Part shown: in pieces, positions 16,845-21,871 of the stretch
Position numbering within the stretch: position 1 is the first letter of the stretch
Layout of the letters: the number at the start of each line of letters is the position of its first letter
Assembly: GCF_000177215.2 (NCBI RefSeq)
Contig: NZ_CM001368.1
Coordinates: forward strand, 2,046,001 to 2,110,000
Length of the DNA: 64,000 bases
DNA from: Solidesulfovibrio carbinoliphilus subsp. oakridgensis
Lineage (GTDB): Bacteria > Desulfobacterota > Desulfovibrionia > Desulfovibrionales > Desulfovibrionaceae
Direction of reading: 5' to 3'
Translations under genes and position numbers: made by a program
The notes under the pieces: model-generated
Told to the model about the DNA's origin: nothing
What the model saw: the letters and a program-made list of their open reading frames with translations, nothing else
Database searches by the model: none

Positions 16845-19487
16845 CTACCGCTCCATGTTGGCGTGGTGGACGTCGCCGCCTTCCATGGGGACGGTGTGGC
16901 AGACGTCGCAGCGCTTGCCCGAGCCGAGGACGCCGGGCGCTCCCATGTACTGCATGGACGGGATGTTGTTGACGTCCAGGCCGTAGTCGTTGACGGCCAC
17001 GGTGGTCGCGTGGGGGCTGCCGTGGCAGGCGGCGCAGGGGATGTTGCCGGTGTCTTCCCGGCGGTTGCGGAAAAGGCCGGAGGCGTCCTTGGTCCAGGCG
17101 TTAAAGGCCGTGGCGTCCTTGGCCGGCCGGGTGAAGTCCTTGTGGCAGGTCAGGCAGTCGGGCTCCTGGGTCCAGGCGGCCCGGGGATGGATGGCGGCCA
17201 CGTCCGGCACGCTTCGGGGCGCAAGCGGGGCCATGAGCCAGGCCGCCGCCGTTTTGCCGGCCGCTTTTTCGGCGGCCAAAAGCGACAGGGCGTGGTCTTC
17301 CATAAAGCCGTGGCAGCGCGGACAGCCGATGCCGGCGGCGTTGTGGTTGTCGCGCTGGGCCTGGGTGACGCCGGTCGGCGCAGTGGGATGGCACCTGGCG
17401 CAGGCGGTCTCGTCGGAGCCGGTCATGTAGTTGGCGTGAAAGCCGTGGATGGCGGCCGAGAGCGAGAGGAGTTCCGGCAGGCCCTTGGCCTCCGGACCGG
17501 CGTTCGGGCCGGCGTCCGGGTGGCAGGACTGGCAGGCCACGGGCTGGCCGGCGGCGGCCCTTTGGGCCATGTCGGTGCCGTTTCGCTTGTCGTGGACCGA
17601 GAGGATGTCCCGGGCCGTGTCCGGGGCCACGCCGGTCGTGCCGTCCACGGCAAAACCGCCGCCGTGGCAGGTAAAGCACCGCATTTCGGTTGAAGTCGGG
17701 GCCACGGCCCGGGTCGTGGCCAGGACCGCGCCGGTGGCCGCGTCCTTGGCCGTGACCGTGAAGACCGGATAGGAGTTGACCCCGCCGGTGTCCGGATAGG
17801 GCGTGACCGGGATGCCGGCCGCGGCAAAGACCTTGTCCCCGGCGGCCATGGTCCCGTCGGGCCCAAGGCCGGTGGTCGAGATGTCCGGGGCCAGCTCCCT
17901 GCCGGTCAGCGATTTGGCGTATTTCCAGAAATCGGAGCGTTTCGACGGATGCTTGAACCCGTCCGGGGCCTCGTAGGTCAGGCTGACGTTGGCCGTGACC
18001 ACCTCGGGGGTGACGTCGCGCTTTACGAGCACGGCCGTCAGCGTGTTGCCGGGCACGGCCAGGGTGAACGAGCCGTCGCAGCCGGCCGTGGCCACCACGC
18101 CGAGGGTATTGAACGCCAGGAGGAGATGGCTGGCCGTGTCCGGGTCAAAGGCCGGCAGGTCCACGGTGGCCGGCTCTACGGCGACCGGCTCGTCTTTTTC
18201 GGGCGGCCGGCCGTTCAGGCCTTCGGCCACGTAGGCGGCCAGGGCCTCGCGCTCGGCCGGGTTGCCCAGAAAAGGCGGCATCTGGGTGAAAAGCTTGCCC
18301 TGGCCGGCCAGGAAGGCGCTGACCCCTTCGGACCCGATGTGCTTGGTATAATTTCGGATGTCTTTGAATGGGCCGCCCACGGCGTGGCAGGCCAGGCACT
18401 GGGCGGTGTAGAGCGCGTGGCCGGCGGCAAGTTTGTTTTCGGCCGTGACCTGCCGGACCTTGGCCCACTTGAGCCGGGGGAGAAACGGCGCGTCATAGGG
18501 CGCGGCCTGGCTCGGACGGATGTCCGTGGACCAGACCAGCCCACTTATGAGCCAGGGCTTGCGGGCCGCCTCGCGCAGGGTCTCGAAGGTGCCGATGAGG
18601 CCGAGGCCGCAAAGGAGCAACAGCGCGGCCAGGGCCCGGCGGACCGGCAGCGGCAGCCGGGTGGCCAGAGCCAGGGAACCGGCGGCCACGGCCAGGAGCA
18701 GGACCGGATAGGCCAGGCGCAAGGCCGGCATCTCGGTCGAGCGGCGCAGCACGAAGTCGCGCACGGACGGCGGCAGGACGCCGACATACCACCAGCCGGA
18801 GAGCAGCAGCACCGGGGCGGCGTAGACCACCCAGCGGCAGGCCGCCCGCAGCATGGTCTCCCGGGCCTCCTCGTCGCGGATGCCAAGGGCCGTGCCGAAG
18901 CCGAAAAGTCCGGCCAGGAGCAGGGCCATGGCCGTACGCAGGACCAGGGACGGCAGGAAGGTGGGATTGAAAAGGCCGTCCCAGAAATCGAGCGTCACCG
19001 GCCACTGGCCGGGCGTCAGCATGAAGCCGATGATGCCGTTGACCGTAAAAAGGGAAAGCCAGGCGAACAGGAAGTAGAAAAACCCGACCAACTGGTGCCT
19101 GGCCGGCTCCAGCCGGTCGAAGCCGTAATAGTAGACGAGCAGCGCCGCGATCTCGCCGGCGAAAAAGGTCCACTCCGTGGCCCAGCCCCAGACGAACGTC
19201 CGGATGAGGACCAGCGTGGCCTGGGGCGAGAGGACCGAGATGGTGAACCAGATACCGACCCCGGACAGGGCCCCGAAGACCATGGTCAGGAGCAGGAAAA
19301 ACCGGGTGTGGCGGTGAAGATAGGCCATGATCGGCGCGCTGCCGGCCTTGCGGGCCTTGGCCTCGGTCAGGACCAGGAAAAGCCCGCCGCCGACGGCGAA
19401 GTGGGCCACGAACACGTGGAGCACGGCGATGAGGGCAATGAAAAAGCCGCCGCCAAAGGCTCCGTTCTGCCAGACGGGAAAGTCCAT
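16845..19487 (-). CDS. cytochrome bd subunit I-like / octahaem cytochrome c fusion
   Basis: An 880-residue membrane redox protein. Residues about 1-340 resemble CydA: an early helix with histidines (VLHVFVAHFAVGGG), then EWTFFAGEIAALLVYYYGFDRL, close in pattern to CydA quinol-oxidase helices 3-4, and ARKPWLI recalling the CydA GRQPW motif. One CLACH site follows near residue 364 (monohaem cytochrome c-like domain). The C-terminal part has seven more CxxCH sites between about 604 and 864 (CFTCH, CQSCH, CARCH, CPRCH, CLTCH, CAACH, CDVCH), so eight c-haems in all, presumably periplasmic. It could pass electrons between quinol, cytochromes and possibly oxygen. It lies 3 bases after a second membrane subunit. 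Function is inferred. Confidence 0.85.
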   Translation of the reverse strand: MDFPVWQNGAFGGGFFIALIAVLHVFVAHFAVGGGLFLVLTEAKARKAGSAPIMAYLHRHTRFFLLLTMVFGALSGVGIWFTISVLSPQATLVLIRTFVWGWATEWTFFAGEIAALLVYYYGFDRLEPARHQLVGFFYFLFAWLSLFTVNGIIGFMLTPGQWPVTLDFWDGLFNPTFLPSLVLRTAMALLLAGLFGFGTALGIRDEEARETMLRAACRWVVYAAPVLLLSGWWYVGVLPPSVRDFVLRRSTEMPALRLAYPVLLLAVAAGSLALATRLPLPVRRALAALLLLCGLGLIGTFETLREAARKPWLISGLVWSTDIRPSQAAPYDAPFLPRLKWAKVRQVTAENKLAAGHALYTAQCLACHAVGGPFKDIRNYTKHIGSEGVSAFLAGQGKLFTQMPPFLGNPAEREALAAYVAEGLNGRPPEKDEPVAVEPATVDLPAFDPDTASHLLLAFNTLGVVATAGCDGSFTLAVPGNTLTAVLVKRDVTPEVVTANVSLTYEAPDGFKHPSKRSDFWKYAKSLTGRELAPDISTTGLGPDGTMAAGDKVFAAAGIPVTPYPDTGGVNSYPVFTVTAKDAATGAVLATTRAVAPTSTEMRCFTCHGGGFAVDGTTGVAPDTARDILSVHDKRNGTDMAQRAAAGQPVACQSCHPDAGPNAGPEAKGLPELLSLSAAIHGFHANYMTGSDETACARCHPTAPTGVTQAQRDNHNAAGIGCPRCHGFMEDHALSLLAAEKAAGKTAAAWLMAPLAPRSVPDVAAIHPRAAWTQEPDCLTCHKDFTRPAKDATAFNAWTKDASGLFRNRREDTGNIPCAACHGSPHATTVAVNDYGLDVNNIPSMQYMGAPGVLGSGKRCDVCHTVPMEGGDVHHANMER

Positions 19488-19490
19488 GCC

Positions 19491-20540
19491 CTACCCCCTC
19501 CCCGCCGGCCGTCGCCAGACGCCAAGGATCCAGACGGTCACGCCGGCGACGCCGGCAAGGCTGGCCAGGAACATGGCCAGTGGCCCGTACTGGGGCAGGA
19601 CGGCCAGGGAGGCCGGCGAGAATTCCGGGGCGAGCAGGGCCTGCCGGACCAGCTCCCGGACCGTGACCATGCCGAGGACCGTGGCCACGACGAACAGGGC
19701 GGCCCGGCCGGGGGCGCCGCGAAGGCCCTGGAAAAGGGCCGCCAGGCCAAGGCCGGCGGCCAGGGCCAGCAGGGCCGTGTGGGGGAGGCTTCCCCCAAGG
19801 AAAAGGCCGCGCGCGGCCGCCGGCAGGGTGAAGAGAAAGACCAACCCGTCGGCGAGCTGGACCATGGTGGCCCGGGTGAACCACCAAAGCCCGAGCCGCA
19901 TCCGGGCCCCGGCCTCCGCGTCGCCCCGGCCGGCGGCCCGGCGGTGGATAAGCGCCAGGAACAACCCGCCGACGGCCAGGGAGGCGACCAGGAAATGGAG
20001 CCAGCGGGGGAAAAACGTCGGGTCGCCGAAGTTGAAAAAAGTCCCCGTCTCGTGGCCGAACCAGCCGTCCCAGGCCCCGGGCCGGATGGCCAGGGTGGAG
20101 GCGTTGACCATGACGAGGCTGGCCAAAAGGAGCAGCAGGACCGGCGGCACGAGGAAGACGCCCGATCCCGGGGCGGACAGGCGCGGCTGGGCGTAGTAAA
20201 GGAACGCATAGGCGGCCATGACCACCAGGAAAAACGACATCCAGGCCACGGCCGACAGGATGGCCGCCGTGTAGAGGTACTGGCCGTAGAGGACCGAGGC
20301 GAACAGAAGCGGCGGCACGCCGAGGTTGACGGTCACGGCCACGGCCGTGGGCAGCCTGCCGCCAAGGCTCGTGGCCGCGCCCCGGCCGGGACCGGGGGTC
20401 AGGAACGCGATCAGGCTGCCGCCAAGGGCCGCGTTCATGACCAGCAGGTGGGCGGCGAAGGTGACCAGGAGCAGGGGCTCGAACAGGCCCCACGGCGCTG
20501 GAAGGGCCGAACCGGGCGGGATGGGCAGGGAGGACGGCAT
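19491..20540 (-). CDS. polytopic membrane subunit paired with the CydA-like octahaem protein
   Basis: A 349-residue integral membrane protein with about eight to nine hydrophobic helices. The first helix region (LLLVTFAAHLLVMNAALGGSLIAF) has a histidine and glycine pattern like that of its downstream partner's first helix, and HETGTFFNFGDPTFFPRWLHFLVAS has further conserved-looking histidines that might bind haem b. It is not a convincing CydB. It is first in a two-gene operon (3-base gap), so it is probably the second core subunit of a bd-like complex. Confidence 0.75.
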   Translation of the reverse strand: MPSSLPIPPGSALPAPWGLFEPLLLVTFAAHLLVMNAALGGSLIAFLTPGPGRGAATSLGGRLPTAVAVTVNLGVPPLLFASVLYGQYLYTAAILSAVAWMSFFLVVMAAYAFLYYAQPRLSAPGSGVFLVPPVLLLLLASLVMVNASTLAIRPGAWDGWFGHETGTFFNFGDPTFFPRWLHFLVASLAVGGLFLALIHRRAAGRGDAEAGARMRLGLWWFTRATMVQLADGLVFLFTLPAAARGLFLGGSLPHTALLALAAGLGLAALFQGLRGAPGRAALFVVATVLGMVTVRELVRQALLAPEFSPASLAVLPQYGPLAMFLASLAGVAGVTVWILGVWRRPAGRG

Positions 20541-20961: not shown

Positions 20962-21159
20962 ATGGACAAGCGGGAAAACCTGGCCTTGCAGGTGACCAAG
21001 GAGATCGTGGTCAAGTTCGTGGAGACCGGCCGCATCTCCCCCGGCAACTTCACCGAGCACTTCGGCCCCATTTATGCGGAAGTGCTGCGGGTCATCAGCC
21101 GGCCCGAGGCCGCAGGCGACGCCAAGGGCGAGGCCAGGGACGGCCGCGACCATGGCTGA
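20962..21159 (+). CDS. small conserved-looking protein upstream of menG
   Basis: A 65-residue acidic/basic mixed protein with a helical core (LALQVTKEIVVKFVETGR, then FGPIYAEVLRVIS). The pattern recalls the small N-terminal module of MucR-like proteins, but no zinc finger or known domain follows and the function is unknown. The start at 20962 was chosen because GGAGG lies 7 bases upstream; another ATG 12 bases earlier overlaps that site. It overlaps the methyltransferase gene by eight bases, so the two are translationally coupled. Confidence 0.7.
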   Translation: MDKRENLALQVTKEIVVKFVETGRISPGNFTEHFGPIYAEVLRVISRPEAAGDAKGEARDGRDHG

Positions 21160-21871
21160 TCTCCCCGTGCCGGGCGAATCGGGGCGCGTGTCCGGCATGT
21201 TCGGCCGGGTGGCCGGTTCCTACGATCTTTTAAACCACCTGCTTTCGGGCGGGCTCGACATCGCCTGGCGGCGGGCCATGGTCCGGGCCCTGCTGACCCC
21301 GGGCCTGCCGCCGGGGCCCCTGCTGGACCTGGCCGCCGGCACGCTCGACGTGTCGATCATGCTGGCCCGCCACGGCGACCGCACGATCGTGGCCGCCGAT
21401 CCCTGCCGGCCGATGCTCACCCGGGGCGTGGCCAAACTGACGGCGGAAACCCGCGGCCGCATCCATCCGGTCGAGGGCGACGGGTTGTCCCTGCCCCTGG
21501 CCGACGGGTCCGTGGCCGGGGCCACCATCGCCTTTGGCATCCGAAACATCCGGCCGCGGCCCGAGGCCTTTGCCGAGCTGGCCCGGGTCATCCGGCCCGG
21601 CGGCCGGCTGATGGTCCTGGAATTCGGCACCGGCAAGCGCCGGCTGTGGGGCGGGTGCTACAACTTCTACCTGCGCCGGGTCCTGCCGGTCATCGGCAAG
21701 ATCGTGTCCGGCGACGACGAGGCCTACCGCTATCTGGCCGCGACCATAAGCGAATTTCCCCACGAGGATGCGCTGGCCGCCGAGATGCGCCAAGCCGGCT
21801 TTCGGGACGTGACCTACCGGGCCATGACCGGCGGCATCGTCTTCCTGCATGCCGGCATCAAAGGCGCGTAA
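21152..21871 (+). CDS. menG: demethylmenaquinone methyltransferase (UbiE/MenG)
   Basis: SAM-dependent C-methyltransferase that makes menaquinone from demethylmenaquinone. The 239-residue protein has the UbiE/COQ5 N-terminal signature (MFGRVAGSYDLLNHLLSGGLD), SAM motif I LLDLAAGTLDVSI, and the second family signature near AFGIRNIRPRPEAFAEL with VIRPGGRLMVLEF. Given the futalosine-pathway genes nearby and no ubiquinone genes, menaquinone is the likely product. The start overlaps the upstream small gene. Confidence 0.93.
   Translation: MADLPVPGESGRVSGMFGRVAGSYDLLNHLLSGGLDIAWRRAMVRALLTPGLPPGPLLDLAAGTLDVSIMLARHGDRTIVAADPCRPMLTRGVAKLTAETRGRIHPVEGDGLSLPLADGSVAGATIAFGIRNIRPRPEAFAELARVIRPGGRLMVLEFGTGKRRLWGGCYNFYLRRVLPVIGKIVSGDDEAYRYLAATISEFPHEDALAAEMRQAGFRDVTYRAMTGGIVFLHAGIKGA

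Follow-up and report, generated by a model that had tools for sequence, protein, structure and literature searches.

A CydA-type membrane core fused to eight c-type haem sites in Solidesulfovibrio carbinoliphilus: a predicted cytochrome c-fed oxygen reductase

Introduction

How does a cytochrome bd-type membrane core obtain its electrons when it is fused to a chain of c-type haem sites? The question is raised by a two-gene unit of Solidesulfovibrio carbinoliphilus subsp. oakridgensis, encoding the proteins P0001 and P0002, which lies in a stretch of 64,000 nucleotides of contig NZ_CM001368.1 (hereafter the window). An earlier note made from the sequence alone (the original prediction) had proposed that the unit exchanges electrons between membrane quinone or oxygen chemistry and periplasmic cytochromes. 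On balance, our analysis favours a two-subunit CydAA' bd-type oxygen reductase that is predicted to draw on cytochrome c in place of quinol. A cytochrome-fed enzyme is preferred to a quinone-fed one because the usual electron-entry site is lost and an eight-haem chain lies outside the membrane. Published work is cited below from excerpts of the respective papers.

The two-gene unit

The unit consists of two open reading frames (ORFs).

16845..19487, minus strand: P0001, 880 amino acids, CydA-type membrane core, class-I cytochrome c, beta domain and seven-haem domain (ATG-start ORF, Pfam, AlphaFold2)
19491..20540, minus strand: P0002, 349 amino acids, CydA' subunit with nine long helices (ATG-start ORF, hhalign, AlphaFold2, VIA)

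P0002 lies upstream of P0001 across a 3-base spacer (19488-19490), and a check of the ORFs bore out what had been claimed of both frames, their strand, their coordinates and the gap between them. P0001 contains exactly eight CxxCH motifs, at residues 364, 604, 652, 696, 722, 778, 818 and 860, so that the predicted arrangement of one plus seven was recovered in full and far above the expectation from 1000 shuffles of P0001 (mean 0.012, maximum 1). Pfam recognises Cyt_bd_oxida_I at residues 17-232 (29.0 bits, barely above the cut-off of 26.2) and Cytochrome_CBB3 at 352-420 (28.2 bits against a cut-off of 27). In the C-terminal half, Cytochrome_C7, Mtrc-MtrF_II-IV and Cytochrome_C554 all exceed their cut-offs, and Cytochrom_c3_2 stays below its own. 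P0002 matches no Pfam family.

The CydA-type core

The membrane part of P0001 and its two diagnostic motifs are placed as follows.

18516..19487, minus strand: CydA-type core, P0001 residues 1-324, eight long helices (hhalign, VIA, conservation 65/65)
19161..19175, minus strand: EWTFF, P0001 residues 105-109, in which E105 corresponds to E. coli E99 and W106 is invariant (hhalign, counts)
18552..18566, minus strand: ARKPW, P0001 residues 308-312, corresponding to E. coli GRQPW 447-451 and preceded by the invariant E302, R305 and E306 (hhalign, counts)

Residue counts for P0001 refer to an alignment of 65 sequences, namely the window sequence and 64 of the 77 eligible homologues, and E. coli numbering was verified on the K-12 CydA sequence. 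The AlphaFold2 model computed from this alignment reached a predicted local distance difference test score (pLDDT) of 91.9 and a predicted template modelling score (pTM) of 0.88. In Foldseek, the matches of the model at ranks 1-20 were all bd-oxidase subunits, with 12 matches at an expectation value (E) of at most 0.001. VIA, which gives one row per entry and realigns Foldseek candidates only, aligned residues 7-324 to ten CydA chains with Z 30.3-32.3 over 310-318 residues; the next rows, outside the bd family, were ActC and ActF (about 18) and PsrC (16.3). Further, hhalign matched the core to canonical CydA with E 1.8e-6 in local and 3e-9 in global mode. Fold and homology are thus computed results: as modelled, residues 7-324 of P0001 are a CydA fold of the cytochrome bd superfamily, and the likeness to quinol oxidase subunit I that had been read from the sequence proved to reflect a genuine CydA-family core by Pfam, hhalign and VIA.

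The computed alignment also places the ligand residues. By hhalign, H24, E105, E112, E306 and R309 are the counterparts of E. coli CydA H19, E99, E107, E445 and R448, whose roles are those of haem d/b595 ligands and of the proton path. These five, together with E302, R305 and P311, are each invariant (65/65), H24 partly by construction, as one of the two search patterns used for finding loci starts at this residue; in sequences gathered without patterns, H24, E105, E112, E302, R305, E306 and R309 each occur in 30/30. The residue set is complete in all relatives of other architectures that were checked (5/5 split, 4/4 near, 9/9 monohaem and 3/3 Desulfovibrio-type) and in 45/45 fused genome ORFs, five further rows having been set aside as CydA' ORFs. 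The invariant E302 and R305 stand where E. coli has W441 and A444. Between E105 and E112 the hhalign alignment has a one-residue gap at E. coli Leu101, a residue that, in the excerpted source, is inserted in E. coli and mycobacteria and absent from Geobacillus thermodenitrificans, in whose bd oxidase the in-plane haem is bound by both His and Glu (PMC8951039). EWTFF had been placed near the CydA quinol/haem region; by hhalign it lies not at the quinol site but in the E99 to E107 region beside haems d and b595.

The partner subunit

Counts for P0002 refer to an alignment of 64 sequences, comprising the window sequence and 63 of 70 CydA' homologues, from which AlphaFold2 produced a model with pLDDT 91.5 and pTM 0.89. 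P0002 matched the P0001 core by hhalign with probability 96.9 and E 1.7e-10 over 270 columns; its match to canonical CydA was weak (probability 8.7, E 0.0038), and the comparison with CydB gave no support (probability 0.7, E 0.083). Among the 64 CydA' members, each Pfam family at E <= 0.1 matches at most 2. In Foldseek the ten best rows are bd subunits, the best at E 1.3e-3 and none at or below 0.001, with PsrC at rank 11 (E 0.024). VIA gave nine CydA chains at Z 25.2-27.7, one CydB at 24.4 and NrfD-type chains at 14.7-18.4. The CydA' family has its own conserved residues, namely H31 (H19-like), M291, R179, R295 and R299 in 64/64 and, at the H186-like position, H182 as His in 63/64; at the positions of E105 and E112, Glu occurs in 0/64.

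Because the hhalign match to the P0001 core is strong, the direct match to CydA weak and that to CydB nil, we assign P0002, from its alignment and its model, as a diverged CydA paralogue (CydA') that is related to the P0001 core and is predicted to have a bd-subunit fold. The original prediction had described a co-encoded second membrane subunit of a different, polytopic kind and no CydB-like partner. The co-encoded subunit stands, and so does the missing CydB in terms of sequence (hhalign probability 0.7, no Pfam family); the unrelatedness does not, for the fold is that of a bd subunit and the sequence is kin to the P0001 core. Homology of P0002 to CydB itself was considered and rejected, the two having only the fold in common.

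The fold comparisons also bear on an origin outside the bd superfamily, which the original prediction had named as an alternative for the N-terminal domain. P0001 might be an NrfD-type membrane anchor with a multihaem cytochrome, or another polytopic electron-transfer protein that merely resembles CydA. The VIA scores of its core against ActC, ActF and PsrC (Z 16-18) and the modest best Foldseek E of P0002 to a bd subunit (1.3e-3, PsrC following at rank 11) lean that way. These scores are outweighed by Z 30-32 to ten CydA chains, Cyt_bd_oxida_I above its cut-off and hhalign E 1.8e-6 for the core, and by Z 24-28 to bd subunits together with the hhalign match to the P0001 core for P0002. The NrfD Pfam family was matched neither by P0001 or P0002 at E <= 1 nor at 0.1 among the 64 CydA' members. 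We consider such an anchor extremely unlikely, and an NrfD origin of both subunits was rejected on fold and family evidence. As an observation in its own right, VIA aligns bd subunits with NrfD-type proteins (ActC, ActF, PsrC) at Z 15-18, scores that the unrelated membrane proteins in the lists do not approach.

Loss of the quinol entry site

To our knowledge, the structurally solved bd oxidases among the matches are quinol-oxidising. In P0001, computation shows the elements of that function to be gone. The position of H186, a ligand of haem b558, falls on L183 (Phe in 54/65, Leu in 11/65), directly followed by the invariant R184, and that of the second b558 ligand, M393, falls on A266 (Met in 1/65). 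The Q-loop between transmembrane helices 6 and 7 is missing; in global hhalign E. coli is about 120 residues longer here (237-391 against 230-264), and in the AlphaFold2 model about 16 residues (236-253) form the loop at this place. The ninth CydA helix is likewise absent from the core (hhalign, AlphaFold2). With neither b558 ligands nor Q-loop, quinol cannot enter as it does in CydA. The alignment of haem b ligands suggested with the original prediction therefore divides, with the b558 pair absent and the haem d/b595 set invariant (65/65).

Quinone might still be the partner by another route. P0001 and P0002 could form a cytochrome:quinone oxidoreductase in which a periplasmic multihaem chain exchanges electrons with menaquinone through a site in CydA', in the manner of Qrc or alternative complex III with their NrfD-type subunits and with no O2 chemistry. 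Such an enzyme would fit the His at the H186 position of CydA' (63/64), the three invariant Arg of that subunit, the fold that bd and NrfD-type subunits have in common (VIA Z 15-18) and the many carriers named as anaerobes. A role of this kind has a precedent in the excerpted Nitrospina genome paper of 2013, which observed bd-like proteins without the canonical quinol residues and considered a quinone-linked function for them (PMC3578206). However, the core retains all tested haem d/b595 and proton-path residues, for which a pure quinone enzyme would have no use, it lacks the Q-loop, and no quinone-site signature was identified. We regard this oxidoreductase as unlikely, and a quinone-linked role as less likely than that of a cytochrome-fed O2 reductase. 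Of the electron exchange originally proposed, the part with periplasmic cytochromes is the natural reading and the part with membrane quinone is disfavoured, as the Q-loop and the b558 positions are lost.

The cytochrome chain and its topology

Three domains follow the core.

18216..18446, minus strand: class-I cytochrome c domain, P0001 residues 348-424, with CLACH at 364-368 (Pfam Cytochrome_CBB3, cytochrome c6 profile match)
17688..18140, minus strand: beta domain, P0001 residues about 450-600 (AlphaFold2 strands)
16848..17687, minus strand: seven-haem domain, P0001 residues 601-880 (CxxCH, Pfam Mtrc-MtrF_II-IV/Cytochrome_C7/Cytochrome_C554)

Residues 353-425 match the profiles of cytochrome c6 chains, and M403, invariant in 65/65, is likely from its conservation to be the distal ligand of the class-I cytochrome c haem. 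The beta domain found weak VIA matches alone among known structures (Z 5-6). In the seven-haem domain, residues 601-673 gave a weak profile match to cytochrome c3 (E 0.006), and candidate distal His are H632, H681, H684, H715, H826, H874 and H875 (each 65/65) and H732 (62/65).

The cytochromes are placed in the periplasm because the core has eight helices and its N-terminus is outside. By the positive-inside rule, this orientation puts the excess of Lys and Arg inside in 61/65 P0001 rows and 64/64 P0002 rows, the margin in the window P0001 itself being small (10 against 8). Judged from the sequence, the P0001 chain would emerge into the periplasm just past E306/R309, at the point where the cytochrome c starts. 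The periplasmic C-terminus, like the eight CxxCH motifs and the conservation of the unit considered next, is a computed feature.

Distribution and architectural variants

Among 99 genomes, P0001 was matched at all in 63, host included, and over at least 830 of its 880 residues in 50 (one of which, G068, holds a stop). In a sample of the phylum it was matched in 97/395, many via the monohaem core or the cytochrome part only, and P0002 in 61/395. The best 80 of at least 560 stretches of genome_contigs encoding relatives (L093-L172) belong by record title mostly to Desulfobacterota, the other titles being Bacteroidales, Ignavibacteria, Kapabacteria, Melioribacteraceae, Nitrospiraceae, Spirochaetia, Glassbacteria, CSSED10-310 and Eisenbacteria. 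Individual names may be wrong, since almost all of these records are metagenome bins. The two-gene unit stands under record names of at least seven phyla and occurs in many bacteria of oxygen-poor habitats. All eight CxxCH are present in 76/80 best loci; L122 and L128 have seven, and L160 and L169 reach the contig end. CydA' lies directly upstream in 74/80 (73 by tblastn, L152 by hidden Markov model), at a spacing of at most 18 bases in all of these except L112 and L134. Of the loci lacking it, L109 and L115 have no upstream DNA and L113 has 1 kb. An assembly error behind the fusion was rejected, as the fusion recurs in 50/99 genomes and 76/80 best loci.

No third conserved gene accompanies the pair, the largest neighbour family occurring at 12/80 best loci; neighbours were called as longest ORFs, with spurious antisense frames in high-GC DNA and many short loci, so that partners could be missed. 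A conserved operon beyond the two genes was rejected, none being found among the best 80 loci.

The fusion has relatives of other architectures. A split form occurs in five genomes of the host's family (L233-L237), with CydA', a CydA-cytochrome c protein and a separate adjacent multihaem gene of 7-10 CxxCH. L246, L249 and L250 encode the core with one cytochrome c and CydA' and no multihaem wire adjoining, and in L247 a three-CxxCH core and CydA' are accompanied by an octahaem cytochrome encoded as a separate gene. On a quick tree of 75 chosen rows, drawn without published OR-N or OR-C sequences, fused, split and near forms group together with a Shimodaira-Hasegawa-like approximate likelihood ratio (SH-aLRT) support of 96, CydA' with 100 and canonical CydA with 99. 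The fused form alone needs 3 changes on this tree, and the long branches of canonical CydA and CydA' meet in it, making their mutual order untrustworthy. Over 58 pairs, uncorrected for kinship, pairwise distances of the core correlate with those of CydA' (r 0.84) and of the multihaem domain (0.78).

Some further arrangements were seen. L238:4921-6609 and L239:5603-7522 encode a stand-alone cytochrome c-beta-multihaem part with eight CxxCH, with no core or CydA' in 11-12 kb. In the host's family, L245:4192-7994 and L251:5028-7939 encode two proteins in succession, the first CydA-like with a single CxxCH and the second CydA'-like with two; in L245 the pair is preceded by a two-CxxCH protein. The host genome has, in addition, a solitary divergent CydA-like gene with one CxxCH (L232:7319-8803; G000:C1 about 1,550,318-1,551,802, plus strand), in which E105 is changed to Asn and R309 to Ala; its branch in the quick tree is extremely long (4.39), no CydA' lies in the 16 kb covered, and it may be degenerate or differently used.

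As to the surroundings of the unit, a UbiE/COQ5-type methyltransferase gene (Pfam) lies at 21074-21871 of the window on the plus strand, divergent from the two genes. A search for sigma-70 promoters found 0, and 11 terminator-like sites were counted where shuffled sequence gave an expectation of 3.8. By gene content the host is a sulfate reducer, with two dsrA above the NCBIfam cut-off; the dsrA region occurs twice in its genome (G000:C1:1296655-1299084 and 2531816-2534246), each time beside a second dsr-type match.

Weighing the favoured reading

Several points weigh against a cytochrome c-fed CydAA' oxygen reductase. Canonical CydA and CydB are present in 41/41 sampled class genomes, the host (which has two canonical cydA genes) among them, so that another O2 reductase is not obviously needed, and many carriers are named as sulfate reducers or belong to groups usually thought anaerobic. 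P0001 is unmatched in 36/99 relatives, and the 3-10 kb of upstream DNA available for L108 (Desulfonema magnum), L143 and L153 showed no CydA'. No oxygen-stress neighbour is conserved at the best 80 loci (largest family 12/80). As aligned, E302 and R305 make the active site non-identical to that of canonical bd enzymes, and the invariance of H24 owes something to the search pattern.

The redundancy with CydAB and the altered E302 and R305 would suit a bd-type reductase of another ligand, such as nitric oxide (NO) or peroxide, that serves anaerobes in detoxification and is likewise fed by periplasmic cytochromes. No neighbour family exceeds 12/80 best loci, however, with nothing conserved that indicates nitrogen oxides or peroxide, and the proton and haem residues match those of O2-reducing bd enzymes. 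We therefore hold this reading to be quite unlikely.

For the favoured oxygen reductase we infer haem insertion, O2 as the substrate, the direction of electrons, the donor and energy conservation along the following lines. Electrons from the periplasmic cytochrome pool would enter the seven-haem domain; in the host the donor could perhaps be tetrahaem cytochrome c3, reduced by hydrogenase or formate dehydrogenase, and cytochrome c3-type matches occur at several places in its genome. From the seven-haem domain the electrons would reach the class-I cytochrome c, positioned just over the membrane, and from it the active site with its two haems in the CydA core (H24/E105, E306/R309), where O2 would be reduced to water. 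Protons would be taken from the cytoplasm via E112/E105, as proposed for E. coli E107, so that turnover would generate a membrane potential or, failing that, remove O2. CydA' would complete the membrane dimer in place of CydB and may hold haem.

A wider reading can be offered tentatively, with rather less confidence than the assignment itself. The unit might be a widespread 'wired' terminal oxidase of anaerobes that connects periplasmic, perhaps extracellular, cytochromes to a bd-type O2 site while bypassing quinones, and might supply a catalyst so far missing for the O2 reduction, linked to cytochromes and H2, that is reported for Desulfovibrio. In the excerpted account, H2-dependent O2 reduction via hydrogenases and c-type cytochromes has been proposed for this genus (PMC4383621).

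Significance

If the reading is true, the bd class would have a second feeding route, with a covalently bound cytochrome chain standing in for the quinol site. Anaerobes could then pass electrons to O2 from outside donors, or from H2 or formate oxidised in the periplasm, and leave the quinone pool untouched, and periplasmic O2 reduction in sulfate reducers would become testable by one deletion. For annotation, H24, E105, E112, E302, R305, E306, R309, eight CxxCH and an upstream CydA' offer a signature; Pfam at present gives a borderline CydA match for P0001 and nothing for its partner.

Comparison with known systems

With canonical CydAB of E. coli and G. thermodenitrificans, the unit has in common the core fold and the counterparts of H19, E99, E107, E445 and R448. 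It differs in having no b558 ligands, no Q-loop and no ninth CydA helix, in CydA' replacing CydB, and in its eight c-type haem sites. The G. thermodenitrificans enzyme resembles P0001 further in lacking the Leu101 insertion, and no bd chain in the PDB matches the P0001 profile better than its 5doq_A.

OmcA/MtrC-type multihaem cytochromes are decahaem proteins of the outer membrane with no inner-membrane core. Part of the seven-haem domain matches their Pfam family Mtrc-MtrF_II-IV (32.5 bits, cut-off 30), whereas P0001 starts with an inner-membrane CydA core of eight helices and has seven plus one haem sites, not ten. A multihaem cytochrome joined to an O2-reacting haem protein is also found in the cytochrome-truncated haemoglobin fusion of cable bacteria, proposed in the excerpt as an alternative terminal oxidase, but the globin there is unrelated to the bd-type membrane core of P0001 (PMC11976967). 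Among sulfate reducers, Desulfovibrio vulgaris likewise has membrane O2 reductases, namely a bd quinol oxidase and a cc(b/o)o3 cytochrome oxidase; as excerpted, the former is quinol-fed, and the latter is of the haem-copper type with the monohaem cytochrome c553 as donor (PMC4383621). No description of a CydA that carries a fused chain of seven or eight haems was seen among the matches listed in the literature searched, which leaves most subscription papers outside.

The nearest published relatives are bd-like enzymes in which CydB is likewise replaced. Murali, Gennis and Hemp (2021) reportedly described OR-N type CydAA' bd-like oxygen reductases. In excerpts of later work the bd superfamily is divided into qOR, OR-C and OR-N (PMC13189123), and Nitrospirales carry several OR-N CydAA' enzymes (PMC12342949, PMC6606698). 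OR-N enzymes have in common with the present unit a CydA-type core without quinol site, a CydA-like partner replacing CydB and cytochrome c as the proposed donor (PMC10839748, PMC12342949); according to the same excerpted source they probably take electrons from cytochrome c in place of quinol, which experiments have yet to confirm (PMC10839748). The difference lies in what is fused to CydA in P0001, namely the cytochrome c domain, the beta domain and the seven-haem module. The sequences of Murali et al. (2021) may include such proteins under OR-N or OR-C; in a comparison made by description, the unit is best read as a near relative of the published OR-N/CydAA' enzymes that carries a seven-haem wire in addition.

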